Source of the DNA: Ramlibacter lithotrophicus
GTDB taxonomy: Bacteria > Pseudomonadota > Gammaproteobacteria > Burkholderiales > Burkholderiaceae_C
Length of the DNA: 64,000 bases
Assembly (NCBI RefSeq): GCF_012184415.1
Contig: NZ_VTOX01000007.1
Coordinates: 1-64,000 of the forward strand
Reading direction: 5' to 3'
In this document: positions 121 through 9,649 of the stretch, piece by piece
Layout of the letters: each line of letters starts with the position of its first letter
Position numbering within the stretch: position 1 is the stretch's first letter
Notes under the pieces: model-generated
The model's database searches: none
The model's input: only the letters and a program-made list of their open reading frames with translations
Told to the model about the DNA's origin: nothing
Position numbers and translations under genes: made by a program

Positions 121-236
121 TCAACAGCCGCTTCTACCTGCAGGCGGCCAACCCGGACTACTCCGACATCTTTCCGGAAGGCGAGCTGGAGATTCTGGGC
201 GTCGTGGTCGGCCAGTGCCGGACGTACCGGAGATAG
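121..236 (+). pseudogene. C-terminal remnant of a LexA/S24-type phage repressor
   Basis: An open frame runs from the IS end to a TAG at 234-236 and encodes about 38 residues, including FYLQAANPDY, then EGELEILGVVVG. This resembles the last strand region of S24 peptidase-type repressors (LexA, CI-like), where an NP-[DE]-Y motif is followed by a conserved LGVVVG strand. The N-terminal DNA-binding half and the catalytic Ser/Lys are missing, so the IS appears to have inserted into the gene. The 5' part may lie beyond the IS, outside the window. The gene would have been the first of the plus-strand cluster that follows, which suggests that cluster was once under SOS-like or phage-like repression. 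Confidence 0.5.
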
Positions 237-329: not shown

Positions 330-629
330 ATGAAGGTCAAAGTTAGAACGCTGCGCCATCAGGGACAAAGCCTCAACCAGGACGACCTGCGCAAGCTGCC
401 GCCCCGTGTGGGCGAACTGCGCGTCATTGAAGAACGCGACCCGGCTCTGCACCGGCAGGTTCTCCGGGCGCGGCTGCTGGACATCACCCGGGACGCAGAG
501 CGGGACATCCTGCCGGCGCTCTCGGACGCGCGCCTGGTGTTCGCCGCGGACGGCAAGATGACCCTCATCGGAACGGAGCGCAACGAGCGGGTCGAATACG
601 GACAGACTTGGTCCGTCGAGGTGGCCTGA
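330..629 (+). CDS. Unrecognised 99-aa protein, first intact gene of the accessory cluster
   Basis: I do not recognise this protein. It is 99 aa, charged and soluble, with no signal peptide or membrane segment. The centre (about residues 30-60) looks helical and the C-terminal third looks like short strands ending in WSVEVA. AAAGGACACGAAG before the ATG supplies a ribosome binding site. Its TGA stop overlaps the ATG of the next gene (ATGA-type), which argues for real, translationally coupled genes. Upstream, at 281-293, is a short palindrome (CCGCTTAAAGCGG) that could end the repressor transcript or act as an operator. Confidence 0.6.
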   Translation: MKVKVRTLRHQGQSLNQDDLRKLPPRVGELRVIEERDPALHRQVLRARLLDITRDAERDILPALSDARLVFAADGKMTLIGTERNERVEYGQTWSVEVA

Positions 630-1327
630 TGCTGCACGTCTTCATCCACTCCGGCGCGCTCGACGAGCGCAACCCCGGCAACCAGCTGGCCGTGCTGGAC
701 ATCGCGTACGCCAAGCGTTCGTACATGGCGGACTACGACATCGCACTCCTGGTGAAAGGCTACGGGGAGGCCCGCCGCGACGCCGTCAAGGGCTACCCGC
801 GCTGGTCCGGGAGCCTCTGGGACCTCGTGGCCAGGGCGCTGACCCGTGCGTTGTACGAGGCCGATGAAGCTCCACCCGCAGGCCCCGTGGACCGGCGCTG
901 CGCCTATGCAACCAAGCTGTGTATTGCCGTCTTTCGCTCGACCGCGGAAGAGGGGCCTGGCTTCGAGATTGCCACCGGCGAAATCGTGCAGGCTGGCAAG
1001 CGAGGTTTGTACACGGTGAACCTCGAAGAAGACATTCTTGGCCGGCGCAGCGCCACCTTCGAGTACGGCACGAAGCGACTGGTACACGCCGACTTGGTGT
1101 TGCGCGCTCTGTGCTGGGCGCTGTTCGGCAAGGACACGTTGGGGCGCCGGCCGGCGCTCATCCTGCCGCCCGCCATCAAGGTCGACGGTGTTGAGCGGTT
1201 TGACATCGAGAACCTTGAGGAGCCGGCTCGCACCGGCTTCGACCGGTACCGCGCGCCGGCGGGGACCACGTCTCCCGACCCGATGCCCAAAGCGGAGGAC
1301 TACGCCCGCTTCCTCACGAGAGGCTGA
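629..1327 (+). CDS. Unrecognised 232-aa protein of the accessory cluster
   Basis: I chose the ATG at 629 because it overlaps the stop of the preceding gene; a TTG at 608 would also be open. The 232-aa product begins MLHVFIHSGALDERNPGNQL, is soluble, and has no motif I can assign. The hydrophobic N-terminal strand followed by a glycine-containing loop could be the start of an alpha/beta fold, but this is not diagnostic. It is followed after 2 bp by the transposase-like gene. Tight packing with its neighbours suggests one transcript and a shared role. Confidence 0.6.
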   Translation: MLHVFIHSGALDERNPGNQLAVLDIAYAKRSYMADYDIALLVKGYGEARRDAVKGYPRWSGSLWDLVARALTRALYEADEAPPAGPVDRRCAYATKLCIAVFRSTAEEGPGFEIATGEIVQAGKRGLYTVNLEEDILGRRSATFEYGTKRLVHADLVLRALCWALFGKDTLGRRPALILPPAIKVDGVERFDIENLEEPARTGFDRYRAPAGTTSPDPMPKAEDYARFLTRG

Positions 1328-1329
1328 CC

Positions 1330-2550
1330 ATGAGTGCAGCGGCGACTCCTCCTGGCAACTTCCCTCTGCGTAGCCGCACGGGGACGGCATCTTGGCACCT
1401 GAGCAAGCGAGCTGTCGACCTGACGCAGGAGCACATTGCCCGCCTGACTGAACTCCAAGCCGTGATGATGATGGCGGAGGCAAACTGGGGGTCGACGACA
1501 CAGATGCCGTGTGTGCACTGCGGCACCGTGGACGTGCATTACTGGTCGAAGGAGCAGCTGCGCTGGAAGTGCAAGTGCTGCGGCAAGCGCTTCTCCGCCA
1601 CATCGGGCACGGGCCTGGCCGACCACAAGCTGCCGTTGAAGAAGATTTTCCAGATTGCGCTGTCCTGGTCGAACGGAGCATCCGGGATGCCCGCGCTGCA
1701 GCTTCGCCGGGATTGGGGTGTTGCCTACAACACGGTCTTCACGCTTCTGCACCGGTTTCGGGAGGGCCTTGTGCGCAGCTTTAACGTGGGCATGCTCGCC
1801 GGCACCCACGAGATGGACGGCATGGACGTGAACGGCCGACGCTATCGCGAGAAGCGAAACAAGCCGCTTGGCGGCAAGGCGGCGGCTGGCAGCGGCCCCA
1901 AAATCCCTGAGTTCTTGCTCAAGCCGAAGGACGGCGAAGAAGTTGTGGGGCCTCCCACCCCACCGAAGTGGGGCAAAGCTGCAAAGCAGCCCATCGACCG
2001 GCGTCTCATCATCGCCATGGTGCAGCGCGGGGAGAGCGCTGGCCTGGGCAGCGCGGCGACTCGCATCGCTATTTCCAAGACGGAGTCTCGCGTCAGTGTG
2101 ACGACCATGGCAACGCGCCATGCCTCCGCAGAGTCGGTGATGATGACCGACGAGGACCCGTCCTACGCCGCGTTCGGGGCGCTGTTCGCCCAGCACGAGA
2201 CCATCAACCACTCGGTGGGCTACAGCAAGCCGGGTGGCATTTCGAACAACCTGGCCGAAAGCCTGAACTCGCGCCTGCGTCGCGGCGCAGAAGGCATCTA
2301 CTTGAACCAGAGCGGCAAGTACACCCACGACTACTCGGTGGAGCAGGCTTGGCGCAGCGACTACCGACGAACGCCAACCGGCAAGCGCTTCCTGAGCCTT
2401 CTACGGTACGCATGCGCGGCCGGCATGTCGATGTGGTGGCGCGGATTCTTCCAGGGCAAGCACCGCGACCACGAGTTGCTGCTCGAAGGGAATCAGCCCG
2501 CCAAGGGACGCGGAAAGCGCAAGGGCTGGAAGCCCCGGCCACCACGATAG
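1330..2550 (+). CDS. IS1595/ISXO2-like transposase
   Basis: This 406-aa protein has the two-part architecture of the IS1595 (ISXO2-like) transposases. An N-terminal zinc ribbon has C61/C64 and C81/C84, followed by the conserved helical region with KIFQIALSWSNG. Then comes an RNase H-like catalytic domain. Candidate catalytic positions are the E161-M-D163 motif, D274 in TDEDPSYAAF, and N307/E310 in NNLAESLNSRLRR. The C-terminal tail is basic. Residues about 180-225 look like a linker insertion between the first two catalytic motifs, and the protein is longer than a typical IS1595 transposase (roughly 200-350 aa). No IS1595-type terminal inverted repeats are visible around the gene alone, so it may mobilise a larger unit or have been co-opted. 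Confidence 0.8.
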   Translation: MSAAATPPGNFPLRSRTGTASWHLSKRAVDLTQEHIARLTELQAVMMMAEANWGSTTQMPCVHCGTVDVHYWSKEQLRWKCKCCGKRFSATSGTGLADHKLPLKKIFQIALSWSNGASGMPALQLRRDWGVAYNTVFTLLHRFREGLVRSFNVGMLAGTHEMDGMDVNGRRYREKRNKPLGGKAAAGSGPKIPEFLLKPKDGEEVVGPPTPPKWGKAAKQPIDRRLIIAMVQRGESAGLGSAATRIAISKTESRVSVTTMATRHASAESVMMTDEDPSYAAFGALFAQHETINHSVGYSKPGGISNNLAESLNSRLRRGAEGIYLNQSGKYTHDYSVEQAWRSDYRRTPTGKRFLSLLRYACAAGMSMWWRGFFQGKHRDHELLLEGNQPAKGRGKRKGWKPRPPR

Positions 2551-2558
2551 GAGCGGAC

Positions 2559-2906
2559 ATGACCTGGCACTTGGCAGCAATCGACTCGGCGACCGAACGA
2601 ACGCTCGATGCCTGGATGGCATTTGAAGTGCCTTTCGATGGCCCGGACAGGCCGTGGACGTGGCATCTGGTTGGTTGGCGCCTGGAAGGTGGCAGGGGAC
2701 AGGTCAGCTCACCGGTGGTCCAGCTCGACCCCGTGGCGAGAAAGGCGGTGACGCGCAGCGGCCGGGTCTACGAGCTGGGCAAGCGGCCGGGGCTGAACCC
2801 CGATGCGTTCGCCACCTGGAGTGCTTGGAAGCGACGTCACGGGTTGCGCGACGAGCGCGAAGTGACGTCGGAGCTCGAAGAGGTGCTTCTCGCCGGCGTG
2901 CGCTAG
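2559..2906 (+). CDS. Unrecognised 115-aa protein, last gene of the plus-strand cluster
   Basis: The ATG at 2559 follows TAGGAGCGGAC, a good ribosome binding site that begins at the transposase stop, so only 8 bp separate the genes. The 115-aa product is rich in Trp in its first half (WHLAAI, WMAFEVP, WTWHLVGW) and ends in an acidic helix. I recognise no family. Its TAG stop at 2904-2906 overlaps the stop of the convergent minus-strand gene in a shared CTAG. Confidence 0.55.
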   Translation: MTWHLAAIDSATERTLDAWMAFEVPFDGPDRPWTWHLVGWRLEGGRGQVSSPVVQLDPVARKAVTRSGRVYELGKRPGLNPDAFATWSAWKRRHGLRDEREVTSELEEVLLAGVR

Positions 2907-3232
2907 CCTCCGCGCGCCGGCATCATGTTCGCCCGGACATACCGCCGCACTGCTCCCGTGGTCACCTTCCGGCCAAAGGGCTTGAGCCACTCGTTCAAGG
3001 CACCGATGGTTTGTGGGTCAAGGCGCGGGTCGAACACGCGGAGCGTGACGTACAGCGCGTCCCGCTGCTTCTCTAGGGCTTGCTTCTTTGCCTCCAGCAC
3101 GGGATAGGCTTGGTGCTCGCCAAGACGCATAGCCCAGTCGATGAACTCGAGCTCGCCGTGGACGTTTGCAATCAGCCTGCACAAGGTGGTGAGCGCGGTT
3201 TGAGTCCGCGTGCGGGTCATCGTCAAAGCCAT
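2903..3232 (-). CDS. Small coiled-coil protein, shortest of three paralogues
   Basis: This 109-aa protein is the last gene of a three-gene minus-strand set. Its N-terminus (TRTRTQTALTTL, later VHGELEFID) lines up with that of the next gene upstream (ARTRTPSGLKWV, later LQGELDRLD), followed by a helical stretch rich in Glu, Lys and Gln. The C-terminal part (about residues 70-105, basic, ending VRRYVRANM) may be a cut-down version of the helix-turn-helix-like region in its paralogues. An internal ATG at 3220 is an alternative start that would remove the overlap with the gene upstream. Function unknown; nucleic-acid binding is a guess from the basic C-terminus. Confidence 0.55.
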   Translation of the reverse strand: MALTMTRTRTQTALTTLCRLIANVHGELEFIDWAMRLGEHQAYPVLEAKKQALEKQRDALYVTLRVFDPRLDPQTIGALNEWLKPFGRKVTTGAVRRYVRANMMPARGG

Positions 3233-3750
3233 GCCTGGCGCTCCTGTTCGAGGCGCCGGAGGCTAGGCACATCATCGGCTGCCCATCTCCACAGGCCCGG
3301 GCCGCCGGCGCTCTGCGGGTCGTGCAGGCGCTCCACGAGGCCGAGTTCCAGCAGCTTGCGAACGGCGCGGCCAAGGGTGTTCTTCCGGTACCGGTCGCGG
3401 GCTTCGGGCGTTGGTAGCTCGAGGCCGAACTGTTCTTCCGCCATGAGCACAAGGGTGCGCATGTCGACAGCGTGGGGTGCCGCTGCTTTCAAGACGCCCC
3501 GAACCCAGTCAACCAGGAAGCCACGCCCGCCGTATGCCTTGTGGACTCGAACCGTGGGCACGAGCGCCTGCAGCTCGGATATGCCCATGACCCGGCCGAC
3601 CTGGTTCAGGGACGCGCGCTGTACCTCCAAGCGTGCGCGGCGGGCTTGAAGCTCCTGCATCTGCTGGTCCAATCGGTCGAGTTCACCCTGGAGGGCTGCC
3701 AGTTCGTTGGCAACCCACTTCAGGCCCGATGGCGTACGCGTCCTGGCCAC
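3223..3750 (-). CDS. Coiled-coil plus winged-helix-like protein (paralogue 2)
   Basis: This 175-aa protein starts with GTG. Residues about 8-50 are a strongly predicted coiled coil (LAALQGELDRLDQQMQELQA). Residues about 85-150 align with paralogue 3: KAYGGRGFLVDWV here against KYGHRGALREFLL there, and YRKNTLGRAVRKLLELGLVERL against FRKQLRIQLRKEAAVVEEL. The arrangement of helices, then a basic helix, then LGLVERL resembles a winged helix-turn-helix, with the coiled coil as a dimerisation handle. The start overlaps the end of the gene upstream by 68 bp and the stop overlaps the start of the gene downstream, so the three are probably co-translated. I know no named family. Confidence 0.6.
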   Translation of the reverse strand: MARTRTPSGLKWVANELAALQGELDRLDQQMQELQARRARLEVQRASLNQVGRVMGISELQALVPTVRVHKAYGGRGFLVDWVRGVLKAAAPHAVDMRTLVLMAEEQFGLELPTPEARDRYRKNTLGRAVRKLLELGLVERLHDPQSAGGPGLWRWAADDVPSLRRLEQERQAWL

Positions 3751-4360
3751 GATTCAGCTCGCGGGCGATGTCACCAAAGGAAGGCTGTGCGCGCCATCGC
3801 CACTGCACCGCCCCGGACTGGCCGGGGACCGGTAGCTCCTCGACGACAGCGGCCTCTTTGCGCAGCTGAATGCGCAGCTGCTTGCGAAAGTTCGTTCGCT
3901 CGCGCTCTGTCAGGGGCCGCAGGTTGAACTCCGCTAGAGCCAGACGGGCCAGCGCACCAGTGCCTACCGACTTGGGTGCCACCCGCCGCAGCTGCGACAG
4001 CAGGAATTCCCTCAAGGCGCCCCTGTGTCCGTACTTGCCGGTGGTCGCCCTGACGACTCCGCCAGCTGCAGGGTTCACTGCTGGATAGCTCGCTGCGAGA
4101 ACAACATCCAGAGCCGCCAGCTCCTCGACTGCGGCCTGCTGATTCGCTGTCAGGGCGGCGACCAGCGCTGCCAGTTCCTCCGCCCGGCGCTGCGCCCGCT
4201 CCGCGGGAGCCTGTGCCGCGGCGGCACTCTCCTGAAGCCGGGCGATTCGTCCCACAAGGGCAGCGCGCTCGTTGAGCAGCCACTTCAGAGTGGGGTCGGT
4301 GTTCTGTCGGTGCACTTCTGCGGTCCATTTCGTGACGGTACCGAGGTGAAGCGACCCCAC
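3683..4360 (-). CDS. Coiled-coil plus winged-helix-like protein (paralogue 3)
   Basis: This 225-aa protein is the first gene of the minus-strand set. It shares a TLKWLLNERAALVGRIARL opening with paralogue 2 and then has an Ala/Glu-rich coiled coil (about residues 22-85). The C-terminal region (about 110-190) matches paralogue 2 over the putative winged helix. The last 30 residues are encoded by DNA that also encodes the start of the next gene, so they may be dispensable. It lies 166 bp from the HU gene with two hairpins in between. Function unknown; the architecture fits a DNA-binding regulator or accessory factor. Confidence 0.55.
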   Translation of the reverse strand: MGSLHLGTVTKWTAEVHRQNTDPTLKWLLNERAALVGRIARLQESAAAAQAPAERAQRRAEELAALVAALTANQQAAVEELAALDVVLAASYPAVNPAAGGVVRATTGKYGHRGALREFLLSQLRRVAPKSVGTGALARLALAEFNLRPLTERERTNFRKQLRIQLRKEAAVVEELPVPGQSGAVQWRWRAQPSFGDIARELNRGQDAYAIGPEVGCQRTGSPPG

Positions 4361-4368
4361 CAGAGCAA

Positions 4369-4398
4369 AAGCCGCCCTTCAGTTACGAAGGACGGCTT
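4369..4398 (-). terminator. Terminator-like hairpin at the edge of the accessory region
   Basis: AAGCCGCCCTTC (4369-4380) and GAAGGACGGCTT (4387-4398) form a 12-bp stem with one G-T pair on the minus strand and a 6-base loop. On the minus strand it is followed by TTTT; on the plus strand TTTT follows after two bases, so it may work both ways. It would shield the accessory cluster from HU transcription. Confidence 0.55.
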
Positions 4399-4452
4399 AC
4401 TTTTGGGTGCTCAGACTCAAGGCTGGGCCATCAGCTGATTAACACCCGTGCT

Positions 4453-4488
4453 CGCGAGAAAGGCCACCCGCAGGTGGCCTTTCTCGCG
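4453..4488 (-). terminator. Terminator hairpin downstream of the HU gene
   Basis: A perfect 16-bp inverted repeat (4453-4468 and 4473-4488) with the 4-base loop CGCA lies 38 bp past the HU stop. There is no clean T-run outside the stem, but its length and position support a role in ending the HU transcript. Confidence 0.6.
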
Positions 4489-4526
4489 TTCTCGTGCAGG
4501 CGGCAGCGTCTGCGGACGCGGCCGGC

Positions 4527-4937
4527 TTACGCCGCCTTGCGCAGCGCGGGTTTCTTCGCCACCGGCGCCTTGGCGACCGGCTTCTTCACCACGGCTTTCC
4601 TGACCGCGGCCTTCTTCGCCTTCGGTGCGGCCGCGGCCTTGTCGGCCTTGCGCTTGGCGAACTTCGCGTCGACGGCCGCCTTGAAGCCGGAGCCCGGCGT
4701 GAACTTCGGCACCTTGGCCGCGGCGATCTTGATCTTGGTGCCGGCCTGCGGGTTGTAGCCGGTGCGCGCGGCGCGGGCGACCTGCTTGAAGGTGCCGAAG
4801 CCGACCAGCGACACCGTGCCGCCCTTCTTCACGGTGGCGACGATGCTGTCGATCACGGTGTCCAGTACCCGGCCGGCTTCTGCCTTGGAAAGCTGGTGCT
4901 TGTCGGCGATGGCCTGGACGAGTTCGATGCGATTCAT
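4527..4937 (-). CDS. HU-family DNA-binding protein with histone H1-like tail
   Basis: Residues 1-90 are a complete HU fold (MNRIELVQAIADKH start, the GGTVSLVGFGTF turn, the NPQAGTKIKI arm). Residues 91-136 add an Ala/Lys/Pro tail of AKKA, AVRK, PVAK-type repeats resembling histone H1-like tails. Ordinary HU is about 90 aa, so the tail is an extension; tailed HU proteins are known in Burkholderiales. It is a nucleoid protein that binds and bends DNA, and the tail should add non-specific DNA compaction. The ATG at 4937 is chosen because it gives the standard HU start and has CGGAGAA 8 bases upstream; the open frame extends further 5' without HU sequence. Confidence 0.92.
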   Translation of the reverse strand: MNRIELVQAIADKHQLSKAEAGRVLDTVIDSIVATVKKGGTVSLVGFGTFKQVARAARTGYNPQAGTKIKIAAAKVPKFTPGSGFKAAVDAKFAKRKADKAAAAPKAKKAAVRKAVVKKPVAKAPVAKKPALRKAA

Positions 4938-5100
4938 GTAGTAGTTCTCCGAAAGTGACACCCGAGTTGCGCGAGTGGCCGCTCGACGCGAGCGGCGCGC
5001 AGAGTGTACCGGCCGGCGCCCGGCGGCTTGTTGCCGGTCCACCGCAAAGCCGCCGCATCGCGCAGCAGGCGACCGGACCCGCCGGTAAACTGGTGGCAAC

Positions 5101-5976
5101 ATGACTGATTCTTCCGGCTACACGCCGCCCGCCGTCTGGTCCTGGAAACGGGACAACGGCGGCCGCTTCGCCAACATCAACCGTCCGGTCGCCGGACCGA
5201 CCCACGACCGGGAACTGCCGGTCGGTCGCCATCCGCTGCAGCTGTATTCGCTGGCGACGCCGAACGGCGTCAAGGTCACCGTGATGCTGGAGGAACTGCT
5301 GGCCCTCGGGCACGCCGGCGCGGAATACGACGCCTGGCTCATTCCGATCAACGAGGGCGCGCAGTTCGGCAGCGGCTTCGTCGCGGTCAATCCCAATTCC
5401 AAGATACCGGCGCTGTCGGACCGCAGCGGGCCGACGCCGATCCGCGTGTTCGAGTCGGGCGCGATCCTGCTGTACCTCGCCGAAAAATTCGGCGCCTTCC
5501 TGCCGGCCGACGCGGCGCTTCGGGCGGAGTGCCTCTCCTGGCTGTTCTGGCAGATGGGCAGCGCACCTTTCCTGGGCGGCGGCTTCGGCCACTTCTATGC
5601 GTATGCGCCGGTCAAGATCGAGTACGCCATCGACCGCTATGCCATGGAAACCAAGCGCCAGCTCGACGTGCTCGACCGGCGGCTCGCCGAGAGCGCCTAC
5701 CTCGCGGGCGACGAGTACACCATCGCCGACATCGCCGTCTGGCCGTGGTACGGCGCGCTCGTCAAGGGGCAGCTGTACGAGGCCGGCGAGTTCCTGCAGG
5801 TGCAGGAGTACCAGCATGTCCTGCGCTGGGCCGACGAGATCGCGCGGCGGCCCGCTGCGCAGCGCGGCCGCATGGTCAACCGCACCTGGGGCCAGCCGGC
5901 CAGCCAGCTGCACGAGCGCCACGACGCCGGCGACTTCGACACGAAGACGCAGGACAAGCTGGCGGCGCCGCGCTGA
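5101..5976 (+). CDS. yghU: YghU-like glutathione-dependent disulfide-bond oxidoreductase
   Basis: This 291-aa glutathione transferase-family protein is close to E. coli YghU in length and layout. An N-terminal extension (PPAVWSWKRDNGGRFANINR) is followed by a thioredoxin-like domain with SLATPNGVKVTVMLEEL and NPNSKIPAL, an ESGAILLYLAEKFG segment, and the helical C-terminal domain with DIAVWPWYGAL. YghU enzymes use two glutathione molecules and reduce disulfides rather than conjugate. Cytosolic. The gene diverges from HU across 163 bp and is followed after 27 bp by a second glutathione transferase, so the two are probably co-transcribed. Confidence 0.9.
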   Translation: MTDSSGYTPPAVWSWKRDNGGRFANINRPVAGPTHDRELPVGRHPLQLYSLATPNGVKVTVMLEELLALGHAGAEYDAWLIPINEGAQFGSGFVAVNPNSKIPALSDRSGPTPIRVFESGAILLYLAEKFGAFLPADAALRAECLSWLFWQMGSAPFLGGGFGHFYAYAPVKIEYAIDRYAMETKRQLDVLDRRLAESAYLAGDEYTIADIAVWPWYGALVKGQLYEAGEFLQVQEYQHVLRWADEIARRPAAQRGRMVNRTWGQPASQLHERHDAGDFDTKTQDKLAAPR

Positions 5977-6003
5977 CGCGCTTTCCCGTTGCACGGAGTT
6001 GCC

Positions 6004-6636
6004 ATGATCACCTTGTACGACTGCGCCACCGCGCCGAGCCCGCGCCGCGCCCGCATCCTGCTGGCCGAGAAAGGCGTCGCCCATGAGACGGTGCAGGTCG
6101 ACCTGCGCAACGGCGAGCAGTTCGGCGAGGCTTTCCGCAGCATCAATCCCCAGTGCACCGTTCCGGCGTTGCGCACCGAGGAGGGCCTGGTGCTGACGGA
6201 CAACGCCGGCATCACGGCCTACCTGGAAGCGCGTTACCCGCAGCCGCCGCTGCTGGGCGACACGCCGGAATCGAAGGCGCAGATCGCTTCCTGGAACTGG
6301 CGCGTCGAATTCGAGGGCCTGCTCGCAATCGCGGAGACGCTGCGCAACGGAACGCCGGCCATGGCCAACCGCGCACTGCCCGGCCCGGTGGACTACGCGC
6401 AGATTCCCGAGCTGGCGCAGCGAGGCCTGGCGCGCGTGCAGCAGTTCTTCGCGACCCTGAACGAGCGGCTGGCCGGCCGCGACTTCATTGCCGCCGGCCG
6501 GTTCAGCGTGGCCGACATCACGGCGGTGGTGGCGGTCGACTTCGCGCGGGTGGTGAAAGTCAAGCCCGGCGAGCAGCACCCCCACCTGCTGCGCTGGCGC
6601 GCCGCGATGGGGCAGCGGCCCTCGATGGCGCCGTAG
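6004..6636 (+). CDS. Glutathione S-transferase family protein
   Basis: This is a 210-aa canonical two-domain glutathione transferase: a thioredoxin-fold N-terminus with ITLYDCATAPSPRRARILLAE, the NPQCTVPAL cis-proline motif and TDNAGITAYLE for glutathione binding, then an all-helical C-terminal domain with FSVADITAVVAVDFA. The ATG at 6004 is preceded by CACGGAGTTGCC; an in-frame upstream ATG at 5989 is less likely. It probably detoxifies electrophiles together with the YghU-like protein encoded just upstream. Substrate unknown. Confidence 0.88.
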   Translation: MITLYDCATAPSPRRARILLAEKGVAHETVQVDLRNGEQFGEAFRSINPQCTVPALRTEEGLVLTDNAGITAYLEARYPQPPLLGDTPESKAQIASWNWRVEFEGLLAIAETLRNGTPAMANRALPGPVDYAQIPELAQRGLARVQQFFATLNERLAGRDFIAAGRFSVADITAVVAVDFARVVKVKPGEQHPHLLRWRAAMGQRPSMAP

Positions 6637-6746
6637 AGCCGCGGACCGCTCGCCTCGCCCGGCGCGCACGGCTCCTGCGCTGCGGCAAACCGGCGCCTGG
6701 AGCCTTGACGTAGCATTGCCGCTTTGCGAGCCAGGGTCGGCCCCCA

Positions 6747-7424
6747 ATGCGAATACTCCTCGTCGAAGACGACAGCATCCTCGCCGATGCCCTCAGTCGC
6801 GCCCTCGTCCAGTCCGCCCATGCGGTGGACGTGGTGGAGACCGGCGAGGAGGCCGACCGGGCGCTGGCCGCCGACATCTACGATCTGGCGATCCTCGACA
6901 TCGGCCTGCCGGGGCTGAGCGGACTGGACGTCCTGCGGCGCCTGCGCGCCCGGCGTTCGCGGGTGCCGGTGCTGATGCTCACCGCGATGGACACCTTGCG
7001 CGACCGGGTGCAAGGGCTCGACCTCGGCGCCGACGACTACCTGACCAAGCCGTTCGACCTGCCCGAGCTCGAGGCCCGGGTGCGGGCGCTGCTGCGGCGC
7101 GGCAGCACCAGCGCCACGCCTTACCTGCGGCACGGGCGCCTGTCTTTCGACACCGTGGGCCGCCGCGTCTTCCACGACAAGACCCCGGTGGAGCTGTCCG
7201 CGCGCGAACTCGCCGTGCTGGAACTGCTGCTGATGCGCGAAGGCCGGGTGGTGAGCAAGGAGCACATCGTCAACCACCTCTACGGCTGGGACGAGGAGGT
7301 CGGCGCGAACGCGATCGAGGTCTACGTCCACCGCATCCGCAAGAAGGTCGAGCCGCTCGGATGCGAGATCCGCACCGTGCGGGGCATGGGGTACCTGGTG
7401 GAACGCGTCGATGACGCGGAGTGA
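6747..7424 (+). CDS. OmpR-family response regulator (TctD/QseB-like)
   Basis: This 225-aa regulator has a receiver domain (residues 1-115) with acidic pocket E7-D8-D9, phosphoacceptor D51 in ILDIGLPG, the LTAMD switch Thr and the conserved Lys in DDYLTKPFDLPELEARV. The C-terminal winged helix (about 125-220) contains SARELAVLELLLM and YVHRIRKKVE. It is partnered with the histidine kinase downstream, whose start overlaps this gene by 14 bp. The TctD/TctE-type sensor suggests control of organic-acid uptake or envelope functions, but no target is visible in the window. Confidence 0.9.
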   Translation: MRILLVEDDSILADALSRALVQSAHAVDVVETGEEADRALAADIYDLAILDIGLPGLSGLDVLRRLRARRSRVPVLMLTAMDTLRDRVQGLDLGADDYLTKPFDLPELEARVRALLRRGSTSATPYLRHGRLSFDTVGRRVFHDKTPVELSARELAVLELLLMREGRVVSKEHIVNHLYGWDEEVGANAIEVYVHRIRKKVEPLGCEIRTVRGMGYLVERVDDAE

Positions 7425-8817
7425 GCCGCGGCTGCAGGCCAAGCTGCTGCGATGGCTGCTCGGCCCCCTGCTGGCGCTGCTGGTGCTCGACACGGCGGCC
7501 ACCTACTGGACCTCGTCCAATTTTTCCAACCTGGCGCACGACCGATCGCTGCAGGAGATCGCCAGGGAAGTGGTGCTGCACGTCAAGCCGAACGGCGCCG
7601 GGCCCAGGCTGGACCTGTCGCCCGCCGCCGAACGGATCCTGCTGGTGGACCAGGACGACCGCCTGTTCATCAAGATCACTTCGGCCGCGGGCACCGTCAT
7701 CGGCGGCGACCCGGACATCGCGCCGCCGCCGGCGGACCCGGCCAGGCACGGCAAGCCGGTCTCCTACGACTCGGTGCTGCACGGACTGCCGGTGCGCGTG
7801 ACGGCGGCCTGGCTGCCTTACGAAGAGGGACCGCAGTCGCCCAGCGTCCTGGTGCAGGTGGCCGAAACCTTGAACAAGCGCCAGCGGCTGGCGTGGGACA
7901 TCATGGCCACGGCGATGGTCCCCCAGCTGCTGCTGGTGCTGCTGGCGACGGCCGCCGTTTACCTGGGCGTGCGGCACGGGCTCGCGCCCCTCAGCCGCCT
8001 GGGGCGCGACGTCGCACGCCGTTCGCACGTCGACCTGAGCCCGATCGATGCCAGCCGCGTGCCGGGCGAGGTGCGCCCGCTGGTCGACGAGGTCAACGAA
8101 CTGATGCTGCGCCTGGGCAAGACGCTCGACTTCCAGAGCCGCTTCATCGCCGACGCGGCGCACCAGTTGAAGACGCCGGTCAGCGGCCTGAAGGCGCAGA
8201 TCGAACTCGCCTTGCGCGAAGCGGAACCGCAGCGCCTGCACCATTCGCTCGCGCAGCTTTACGTCGGCGTCGACCGCCTTTCGCGGCTGGTGCAGCAACT
8301 GCTGGCGCTGGCCCGCAACGAGCCGGGGGCGATCGACGCCGTGCAGATGCAGTCGCTCGACCTGGACGTGCTGGCCCTGGAAACGAGCATGGAGTGGGTG
8401 CCGCAGGCCCTCAGGCACGGGGTCGACCTCGGGTTCGAGGGCGGCGAGGGGCCGCTCATGATCACCGCCGACGCGGACCGGCTGCGCGAGTTGATCAACA
8501 ACCTCATCGACAACGCCGTGCGCTACAGCCGGCGCGGCGGGCGCGTCACGGTCGCGACGCGGCGCTCCGCCGACGGCGCCGCGGAACTGTCGATCAGCGA
8601 CGACGGCCCCAGCATCCCGGTGGCCGAACGCAAGCGCATCTTCGAGCGCTTCCACCGGCTGCTCGGGACGCACGCCGACGGCAGCGGGCTGGGGCTCGCG
8701 ATCGTCAGCGAGATCGCGACGCTGCACGGCGCCCGGATCAACCTGGAAGAGGACGTGGACGGCGTCGGCAACACGTTCAGCGTCCACTTTCCGCCGCCGC
8801 CGCGTCCCGCGCCGTAA
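7411..8817 (+). CDS. Sensor histidine kinase (TctE-like, 2CSK_N type)
   Basis: This 468-aa membrane kinase has a first membrane helix at about residues 13-32, a periplasmic sensor region to about 165 of the 2CSK_N/TctE type, and a second helix at about 168-190. A HAMP-like linker is followed by a dimerisation domain with the phosphoacceptor His at residue 251 in DAAHQLKTPVSGLKAQIE. The ATPase domain has NLIDNAVRYS (N box) and DGSGLGLAIVSEI (G box). It phosphorylates the response regulator encoded just upstream, with which it is translationally coupled. Confidence 0.9.
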   Translation: MTRSEPRLQAKLLRWLLGPLLALLVLDTAATYWTSSNFSNLAHDRSLQEIAREVVLHVKPNGAGPRLDLSPAAERILLVDQDDRLFIKITSAAGTVIGGDPDIAPPPADPARHGKPVSYDSVLHGLPVRVTAAWLPYEEGPQSPSVLVQVAETLNKRQRLAWDIMATAMVPQLLLVLLATAAVYLGVRHGLAPLSRLGRDVARRSHVDLSPIDASRVPGEVRPLVDEVNELMLRLGKTLDFQSRFIADAAHQLKTPVSGLKAQIELALREAEPQRLHHSLAQLYVGVDRLSRLVQQLLALARNEPGAIDAVQMQSLDLDVLALETSMEWVPQALRHGVDLGFEGGEGPLMITADADRLRELINNLIDNAVRYSRRGGRVTVATRRSADGAAELSISDDGPSIPVAERKRIFERFHRLLGTHADGSGLGLAIVSEIATLHGARINLEEDVDGVGNTFSVHFPPPPRPAP

Positions 8818-8861
8818 GCGCGGCGAAAGCTTGGCGACATCTTCACGACAGCAGGGCGGCA

Positions 8862-8930
8862 GGAGGGCGTAAGCGCCCCTCCCTACCCTCGAAAGTCATC
8901 GGCCGCATCCGCGTGCCGGCCACTTTCGAG
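8862..8930 (+). promoter_or_regulatory. Two-hairpin leader in front of terC
   Basis: A first stem-loop spans 8862-8882 (GGAGGGCG, loop TAAG, CGCCCCTCC with one bulged C). A second has a perfect 9-bp outer stem, CTCGAAAGT (8888-8896) with ACTTTCGAG (8922-8930), and an inner 5-bp stem (8901-8905 with 8917-8921). It ends directly at the GAGGAGAAAAG ribosome binding site of terC, so folding could mask that site. TerC-family genes are often behind the manganese-sensing yybP-ykoY riboswitch, but I cannot see its GGGGAGUAG consensus here. Confidence 0.5.
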
Positions 8931-8938
8931 GAGAAAAG

Positions 8939-9649
8939 ATGTCCTTGCTTTCCAGCCCGGAATTCTGGGTCGCGCTGTTCCAGATCATCCTGATCAACAT
9001 CGTCCTGAGCGGCGACAACGCCGTCGTCATCGCGCTCGCCTGCCGCGACCTGCCGCAGCGGCAGCAGAAGAAGGCGATCGTGTTCGGAAGCGTGGGCGCC
9101 ATCGTCCTGCGCGTCGTGCTCACCTTCTTTGCCGTCTACCTGCTCACCCTGCCTTACCTCAAGCTGGTCGGCGCCGTGCTGCTGCTGTGGATCGGCGTCG
9201 GGCTGCTCAAGGGCGAGGACGACGGCGAAGAGCTCTCGAGCAACGCCAACCTGGCCGCGGCGATCAAGACGATCATCGTGGCCGACCTCGTGATGAGCCT
9301 GGACAACGTGATCGGCGTGGCCGCCGCGGCCAAGGGCAACGTTCCGCTGCTCGTGATCGGCCTCGTGATCAGCATCCCGCTGATCATCTACGGCAGCACG
9401 CTGATCCTGAAGCTGATGGCCCGCTTCCCGGTGATCATCACGATCGGCGCCGGCCTGCTCGGCTGGGTGGCCGGCGAGATGGCCCTGTCCGATCCGGCGG
9501 TGAAGGACTGGGCCGAAGGCCAGCACACCTTGCACATGCTGGCGCCGGCGATCGGGGCCGCGCTGGTGGTTGCCACCGGCAAGTGGCTGACGATCCGCGC
9601 CGCGGCGCAGGGCGCGATCGAACCGGTCGGCGACCGTACGGCGGCCTGA
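8939..9649 (+). CDS. TerC-family integral membrane protein
   Basis: This 236-aa polytopic membrane protein has about seven hydrophobic helices. It carries the two TerC signature motifs, NIVLSGDNAVVIA in the first helix and DLVMSLDNVIGVAAAA in the fourth, with acidic residues within the membrane. TerC/Alx/YjbE-type proteins are linked to metal-ion export, manganese in particular, and to tellurite or pH stress. The start is fixed by GAGGAGAAAAG. The universal stress protein gene begins 14 bp downstream and is probably co-transcribed. Confidence 0.9.
   Translation: MSLLSSPEFWVALFQIILINIVLSGDNAVVIALACRDLPQRQQKKAIVFGSVGAIVLRVVLTFFAVYLLTLPYLKLVGAVLLLWIGVGLLKGEDDGEELSSNANLAAAIKTIIVADLVMSLDNVIGVAAAAKGNVPLLVIGLVISIPLIIYGSTLILKLMARFPVIITIGAGLLGWVAGEMALSDPAVKDWAEGQHTLHMLAPAIGAALVVATGKWLTIRAAAQGAIEPVGDRTAA

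Follow-up and report, generated by a model that had tools for sequence, protein, structure and literature searches.

We analyzed a stretch of 64,000 nt from Ramlibacter lithotrophicus (positions 1 to 64,000 of contig NZ_VTOX01000007.1, assembly GCF_012184415.1; hereafter, the window), at the left edge of which four genes are packed on the forward strand around a transposase of the IS1595 type. These are g1 (positions 330–629, 99 amino acids, aa) and g2 (629–1327, 232 aa), both core accessory genes of a transposition module; g3 (1330–2550, 406 aa), encoding an IS1595-type DDE transposase with a zinc ribbon; and g4 (2559–2906, 115 aa), an accessory gene with two relatives elsewhere in the same genome. 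The stop codon of g1 and the start codon of g2 overlap in TGATG, and the gaps are 2 bp between g2 and g3 and 8 bp between g3 and g4. The four tightly packed frames reported in the initial annotation are borne out by the open reading frames (ORFs) and their spacing; for g2 and g4, longer frames from earlier start codons are also present in the ORF list. The genes at 330–2906 are thus real, but they do not form a complete unit, as the element to which they belong reaches beyond these coordinates on both sides. Very probably, they make up the right-hand portion of a transposon (at least 10.5 kb) from a distinct IS1595-related group that targets terminator hairpins and in which g1 and/or g2 would select the target.

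Three genes on the reverse strand converge on this cluster: d1 (2903–3232, 109 aa), belonging to the right-end module, and d2 (3223–3750, 175 aa) and d3 (3683–4360, 225 aa), each encoding a coiled-coil and winged-helix protein. They are followed by the right terminal inverted repeat GGGTGTTAATCAGCTGATGGCC (4426–4447, reverse strand), whose left partner is found on a separate contig of this genome (G000:C10:225543), and by the 8-bp target duplication GTGCTCGC (4448–4455), the same 8-mer preceding the left end on C10. The target is a terminator-like hairpin (4453–4488, reverse strand) with a 16-bp stem, centered 23 bp away from the point of insertion; it is located 3′ of a host gene outside the element (4527–4937, reverse strand, within the ORF 4527–5102), which we take to be HU (hupB-like), both the start and the name having been assigned by eye. 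On the other side, upstream of g1, there is the 3′ remnant of an S24/LexA-like repressor gene (121–236, forward strand, start approximate; Peptidase_S24, E = 0.014), interrupted by the end of an insertion sequence (IS; 1–120, boundary approximate). The latter also interrupts the assembly, contig C7 beginning at this point, and carries a GTGGGTCA-type sequence, similar to one at the insertion cutting g1 in locus L021.

The zinc ribbon and the IS1595-type DDE motifs initially read from the sequence of g3 are confirmed by matches to DDE_Tnp_IS1595 (PF12762; E = 3.4e-22, 79.5 bits at a Pfam cut-off of 27) and to the IS1595 transposase family NF033547 of NCBIfam (E = 1.7e-24, 86.9 bits, cut-off 75), and by conservation of the four zinc-ribbon cysteines in all 12 relatives compared; the zinc-ribbon model PF12760 itself yields 20 bits, which is under the Pfam cut-off of 25.4. 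The comparison of catalytic residues proposed at the same time also had a clear outcome: D163, D274, and E310, presumably the catalytic acidic triad as known from the IS1595 family, are retained by every one of the 12 g3 sequences examined (L135, where g3 runs off the contig, was excluded from the residue count). In the IQ-TREE phylogeny of 27 rows, 12 g3 sequences are split from 15 other IS1595-type rows by a branch with 100/99 support, and this branch is long, with 0.87 changes per column.

The ends of the element were identified by comparison of right flanks, which share a common terminal sequence, with an inverted copy at the left in L020. The inverted repeats are approximately 22 bp long and follow the pattern GGGTGTTA....GCWGATGRCC or diverged forms, e.g., GGGTTTTA...; copies found via g2 carry diverged repeats, GGGTTTTA... 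or GGGTCTTA.... Among 399 genomes sampled from the family, 10 contain the repeat GGGTGTTANNNNGCWGATGRCC, and the reversed control matched nowhere; a looser form is present in 1 of 399 genomes of the order sample (the genome of the window itself), with two control matches by chance. Diverged repeats, for instance those of L134–L138, escape this pattern, and these counts are therefore lower bounds. The window copy extends from C10:225543 to position 4447 of the window and has GTGCTCGC on both outer sides; hence its size is at least 6,107 + 4,447 bp, that is, at least 10.5 kb. The element of Caenimonas sp. SL110 (G670:C12:159411–177964) spans 18,554 bp; genomes G1056 and G670 share end coordinates and were therefore treated as one genome and counted once. 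Full copies range from 5.1 to 18.5 kb and comprise several genes.

Identical 8-bp sequences flank all 14 insertions for which both ends are known, with the qualification that in three cases (G000, G673, and G1020) the ends were paired across contigs, the shared 8-mer serving as a guide. In L091 the left end deviates from the repeat pattern at one position. For L133 we observe an empty site: in the congener G887 the locus is uninterrupted, with a single TTTGCAGT and an intact hairpin. In the genus sample (31 genomes) no match across the junction was found for the insertion in the window, and for L085 the left flank was matched in six genomes besides G958, none of them across the junction. Moreover, four small derivatives (L087, 631 bp; L088, 879 bp; L092, 1,161 bp; L091, 1,943 bp), as well as the decayed 11.3-kb copy L085, show no match to g1–g3. 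As such derivatives have the ends without g1–g3, the element ends are evidently mobilizable in trans.

The alignment of copies that had been suggested to find ends and target duplications has thus produced both, and of the two readings offered initially, an IS1595-derived transposon with accessory genes agrees well with the inverted repeats, the 8-bp duplications in 14 of 14 insertions, the empty site, and the non-autonomous derivatives. The other one, a co-opted (domesticated), immobile nuclease working with its neighbors, could draw on conservation of the operon and on the single match of g3 in the window genome; it is contradicted by the ends, the duplications, the empty site, the varied targets across genomes, and the non-autonomous derivatives, and we regard it as very improbable. 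At the level of genomic sequences, past mobility, the ends, the duplication, and the target register described below are all demonstrated for the group, which is characterized by approximately 22-bp repeats, 8-bp duplications, the g1-g2-g3 operon read towards the convergent d genes, and variable cargo.

Every one of the 14 two-ended insertions has a terminator-like hairpin on one side, with its T-rich tract facing the insertion. Eleven of them belong to the first set, from which the terminator rule was derived; the other three were recovered afterwards via g2 and are the only ones out of sample. The terminator may be at either end of the element. In 13 of these 14 cases the element has inserted 23.0–24.0 bp away from the axis of the hairpin, and for loops of 4 and 5 nt the insertion is 21 nt from the 3′ edge of the loop. 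The targets differ in stem sequence and in the length of the longest perfect stem (7–19 bp). As the distance to the axis and the loop is nearly constant despite the variation in stem length, anchoring seems to occur at the hairpin apex, rather than at the base of the stem.

These observations bear on two alternative explanations. Under the first, insertion is random and followed by selection for harmless intergenic sites; indeed, the insertions are at gene ends, where harm is unlikely. Still, the looser terminator test is passed by only 19 of 2,509 non-ORF positions (0.76%) compared to 14 of 14 insertions, and a narrow register is not expected from selection for intergenic sites, which makes this explanation hardly credible. 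In the wider controls, 374 of 179,700 positions (0.21%) pass the strict rule and 514 of 161,900 (0.32%) the looser one. Under the second, the element would recognize a paused RNA polymerase or termination factor at the terminator instead of the hairpin in the DNA, in agreement with the terminator-like nature of the targets, the T-rich tract facing the insertion, and the variable stem sequences. For RNA polymerase we would expect a register relative to the stem base or the U-tract, and the distance is near-constant from the axis at stems of 7–19 bp; we consider this explanation rather unlikely.

Some host neighborhoods were found more than once in different genomes with different flanking 8-mers: L085 and L088 are in the terminator region of the same gene, presumably S20-like, and have different duplications; L023 and L137 share a YycJ-like neighborhood; and L021 and L135 have common neighbors beside the insertions, LysR and phosphoesterase genes (all named by eye). 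This suggests that the same terminators are hit recurrently.

The co-occurrence of all four genes in the same order, proposed initially as a check, holds for g1-g2-g3 and fails for g4. A pattern-based scan of genome contigs yielded five relatives with 41–71% identity, all of them retaining the g2-g3 order, with three convergent genes next to it in four of the five and one weak match in L023; the latter is a Methylotenera bin, and the group is thus present outside the family as well. A search with g2 in 399 genomes of the family gave nine positive genomes, six of them new, and in all six g1, g2, and g3 are in this order. With L089/L090 from the repeat search included, 13 loci contain g3. In 13 of 13, g2 is immediately upstream of g3, truncated in L020 (where the 5′ part has changed) and in L022 (at the contig edge); g1 is upstream of g2 in ten, is on the paired contig L096 for L022, and is missing or cut in L021 (by an IS) and L020. 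Genes of the d type are downstream in 12 of 13 loci, the remaining one, L135, running off the contig, while g4 adjoins g3 in two loci only, in the window and in L019. Hence, g4 is an accessory gene outside the core module, and the initially considered possibility that this transposase occurs alone, with neighbors not conserved, is at odds with the conservation of g1, g2, and the d genes alongside this transposase type.

Across nine loci, g1, g2, and g3 are correlated in their pairwise identities (r = 0.87–0.90); the Mantel test gives r = 0.89 for g2 and g3 and r = 0.87 for g1 and g3, with 0 of 999 permutations in each case. Loci L020–L022 and L135, with a gene missing or cut, were left out of the Mantel set, and shared host ancestry can also contribute to these correlations. 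In the order sample, g2 was found in 2 of 399 genomes, the window genome and one with a diverged g2 and no g3 nearby. In the latter (G438, from another family of the order), the diverged g2 (L029, 9439–10128) is near three large genes that look recombinase-like by eye. On plasmids, g2 was not found; 148 plasmid records have distant IS1595 matches, every one with less than 60% identity.

For comparison with IS1595 relatives lacking g1 and g2, we searched for ends in 15 loci, eight plasmid IS1595 copies and seven genome loci, accepting those with an 8-bp duplication and at least 18 of 22 matching repeat bases. This resulted in five elements, all from plasmids, and a flanking hairpin is absent from each of them (0 of 5); in one, L120, the insertion appears, from the annotation, to interrupt an Ldh gene. 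A tblastn search (E-value threshold 0.01) of 25 loci with relatives of this kind gave no match to g1, g2, or the d genes. Four of the eight plasmid copies encode a convergent coiled-coil protein linked to d by hhalign (97.5%, E = 6e-12). These d homologues, annotated as hypothetical (L117, 2499–2945; L120, 2473–2991; L121, 2427–2852; L122, 2426–2893), are on plasmids of Alphaproteobacteria and are inside the ends in L120–L122, the three with known ends. A d-like gene is thus also present in non-targeting elements, where g1 and g2 are not seen.

This comparison also bears on whether g3 alone recognizes the terminator, with g1, g2, and the d genes serving for regulation or end binding. The long branch leading to the g3 clade is in line with such a role, and target choice that depends on structure and involves the transposase only is known from other families. 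On the contrary, g1 and g2 set this clade apart from the relatives examined and diverge in step with g3, and d-like genes are also present in relatives, of which the three with defined ends miss terminators. We consider recognition by g3 alone possible, if doubtful. Our own suggestion, which is tentative too and to which we give somewhat more credit, is that g1 and g2 together constitute an element-encoded selector that reads the shape, rather than the sequence, of the terminator hairpin, placing the insertion at approximately 21 nt from its loop. More generally, from the genomic comparisons we infer that insertion is steered by g1 and g2 or by the diverged transposase.

The proteins surrounding g3 were initially described as having no known family, which remains valid for g2 and g4 and is to be amended for g1, as it matches phrog_5560 (E = 1.6e-7), a PHROGs family that is itself of unknown function. 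In the Pseudomonas phage PG1 a g1 relative is 2 bp downstream of an SOS-response-associated peptidase gene; this is not so in the phage Medea1. For g2 there are no matches in Pfam, PADLOC, or NCBIfam, and only a weak one in PHROGs (E = 0.11). Its predicted model is of the alpha/beta type with moderate confidence (mean predicted local distance difference test score, pLDDT, 70.6); Foldseek gave no match at E ≤ 0.001, and the best VIA-align hit (Z = 5.2) is too weak to name a fold. A PUR/Whirly-like fold, considered from the strand order, was rejected, as such chains are found only among the weak rows. The predicted model of d3 (mean pLDDT 80.8) consists of a long helix and a winged helix, with weak matches to winged-helix structures. 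No convincing family was found for g4 in Pfam, PADLOC, PHROGs, or NCBIfam. Its two relatives in the window genome are in an island (L033, G000:C11:138000–155000, positions 1148–9276), preceded by a HAD-like gene and followed by one that looks like CoiA; QueC- and ThiF-looking genes are nearby (by eye), and no close terminal repeat of the group is present there.

The last 35 residues encoded by the S24 remnant of the window are 88.6% identical to those of the corresponding gene in the Caenimonas locus L019, an intact S24/LexA-like gene in the same position relative to g1 (Peptidase_S24, E = 2.3e-25). Overall, seven of the 13 loci have an intact S24 gene upstream of g1 (L019, L089, L133, L134, L136, L137, and L138). 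The remnant had been recognized correctly; its interpretation as a sign of former phage-like repression does not stand, since the S24 gene recurs as a part of the element and is thus not evidence of a former phage. In L137 (9106–9363) and L134 (9219–9476) a small gene on the opposite strand is located between the S24 gene and g1, assigned to DUF6471 by Pfam in L137 and by eye in L134; perhaps it encodes a second regulator. The window copy may be inactive, its S24 gene being broken by the IS.

A phage origin of the element is ruled out by the ends, the duplications, and the empty site. For g3, tblastn gave no matches in phages, and a single-protein query revealed no relative among viral contigs; an alignment query produced one truncated zinc-ribbon match (L026). 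One IMG/VR viral contig (L084, 2177–2198) has a single terminal repeat of the group, and its visible flank is without a hairpin.

The cargo of the group varies. In Caenimonas (L019/L095) it includes the type I restriction–modification genes HsdR, HsdS, and HsdM and a Schlafen/AlbA protein; L096 carries type I HsdM, HsdS, and HsdR, and L092, QatD/TatD. Other cargo comprises Fic (L097, L137), CoiA-like proteins (L020, L137), an N6_N4_Mtase DNA methylase (L136), and T5orf172 (L135). The left part of the window element encodes a GntR-aminotransferase regulator, FMN_bind_2, ABM, LysE, and SMR proteins, and two unknowns; Pfam revealed no defense genes among these seven cargo proteins, one of which was also scanned with PADLOC. 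In L098 (1673–4085) genes of toxin–antitoxin appearance (by eye) are between a diverged and a good repeat, and no matching duplication is present.

The proposed course of transposition would be as follows. The S24 protein would repress the operon, with release possible under DNA damage; the d proteins would bind DNA, at the ends or at the promoter; g1 and/or g2 would recognize the terminator hairpin, as a DNA structure or via the transcription complex; and the selector would position g3, which would cut and join the element ends, at a fixed distance, leading to insertion behind genes, with the genes unbroken.

Several observations weigh against targeting guided by g1 and g2. L020 is 28 bp from the axis of a hairpin with an imperfect stem and was counted as a strict-register miss. 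Ten one-ended copies were excluded from the 14; among them, judged by the flank that is visible, three satisfy the strict rule and four the looser one (L135 at 25 bp), and in six this flank has no hairpin. The comparison group consists of five elements only, from other bacteria, with L124 distant. The S24 gene of the window copy is broken by an IS, and the element is spread over at least two contigs. The transposase itself has diverged and could hold the target specificity. Finally, the small derivatives have no g1 or g2 and must have moved in trans.

If targeting of terminators at a fixed register from the hairpin is correct, such elements would find numerous harmless sites in every genome, with no need for one conserved attachment site, which would explain the spread of large cargo, such as restriction systems, without gene breakage. 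With g1 and g2 as the selector, they would represent a structure-guided transposon family using some of the commonest safe sites in bacterial genomes, and guidance of a DDE transposase by nucleic-acid structure or by transcription would become directly testable. A tool for insertion behind genes could also be possible.

An 8-bp duplication is typical of the IS1595 family, and the five relatives with defined ends have 8-bp duplications as well. The group described here shares with this family the transposase domain, the zinc-ribbon cysteines, the duplication length, and, in four of the eight plasmid relatives, the convergent coiled-coil gene; the terminal repeats are related by eye only (CGGTCTTAGGTAGCAGATGCAC in L122 and GGGTGTTAATAAGCAGATGACC here). 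It differs in the copy size of 5–18.5 kb, the presence of g1 and g2, the S24 gene, the cargo, the terminator targeting, and the separate clade. As its members are not short one-gene elements, we refer to them as IS1595-related transposons, not as IS. IS1595-derived transposons with passenger genes have reportedly been described by Siguier, Gagnevin and Chandler in 2009, and these, too, are said to have an IS1595-type transposase with further genes between the ends.

IS1595 elements are reported to be over-represented between genes (PMC9208149). Our search of the open literature revealed no account of terminator-targeting IS1595 elements, a weak absence, as subscription papers were outside its scope; the passages considered from PMC9208149, PMC7371123, PMC11092175, and PMC3942029 mention neither a g1-g2-d module nor terminator targeting. 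Within this literature, passenger genes in IS1595 elements are known, and the terminator register and the g1-g2 module are new.

Guided insertion is known for Tn7, which is directed downstream of glmS by TnsD (PMC2918618). The proposed g1-g2 selector would be similar in being encoded by the element and in directing it to a fixed place at a harmless site behind a gene; however, Tn7 reads one conserved sequence, whereas the diverse terminators observed here share the hairpin only. Pfam gave no match to TnsA, TnsB, or TnsC among g1–g4 and d1–d3, and thus no TnsC-type ATPase is seen in the core genes. TnGBS and Mutator-type elements insert at a fixed distance upstream of promoters. The fixed offset from a transcription signal is common to them and to the group described here, while the transposase belongs to another family, and the signal is a promoter in their case and a terminator in ours.

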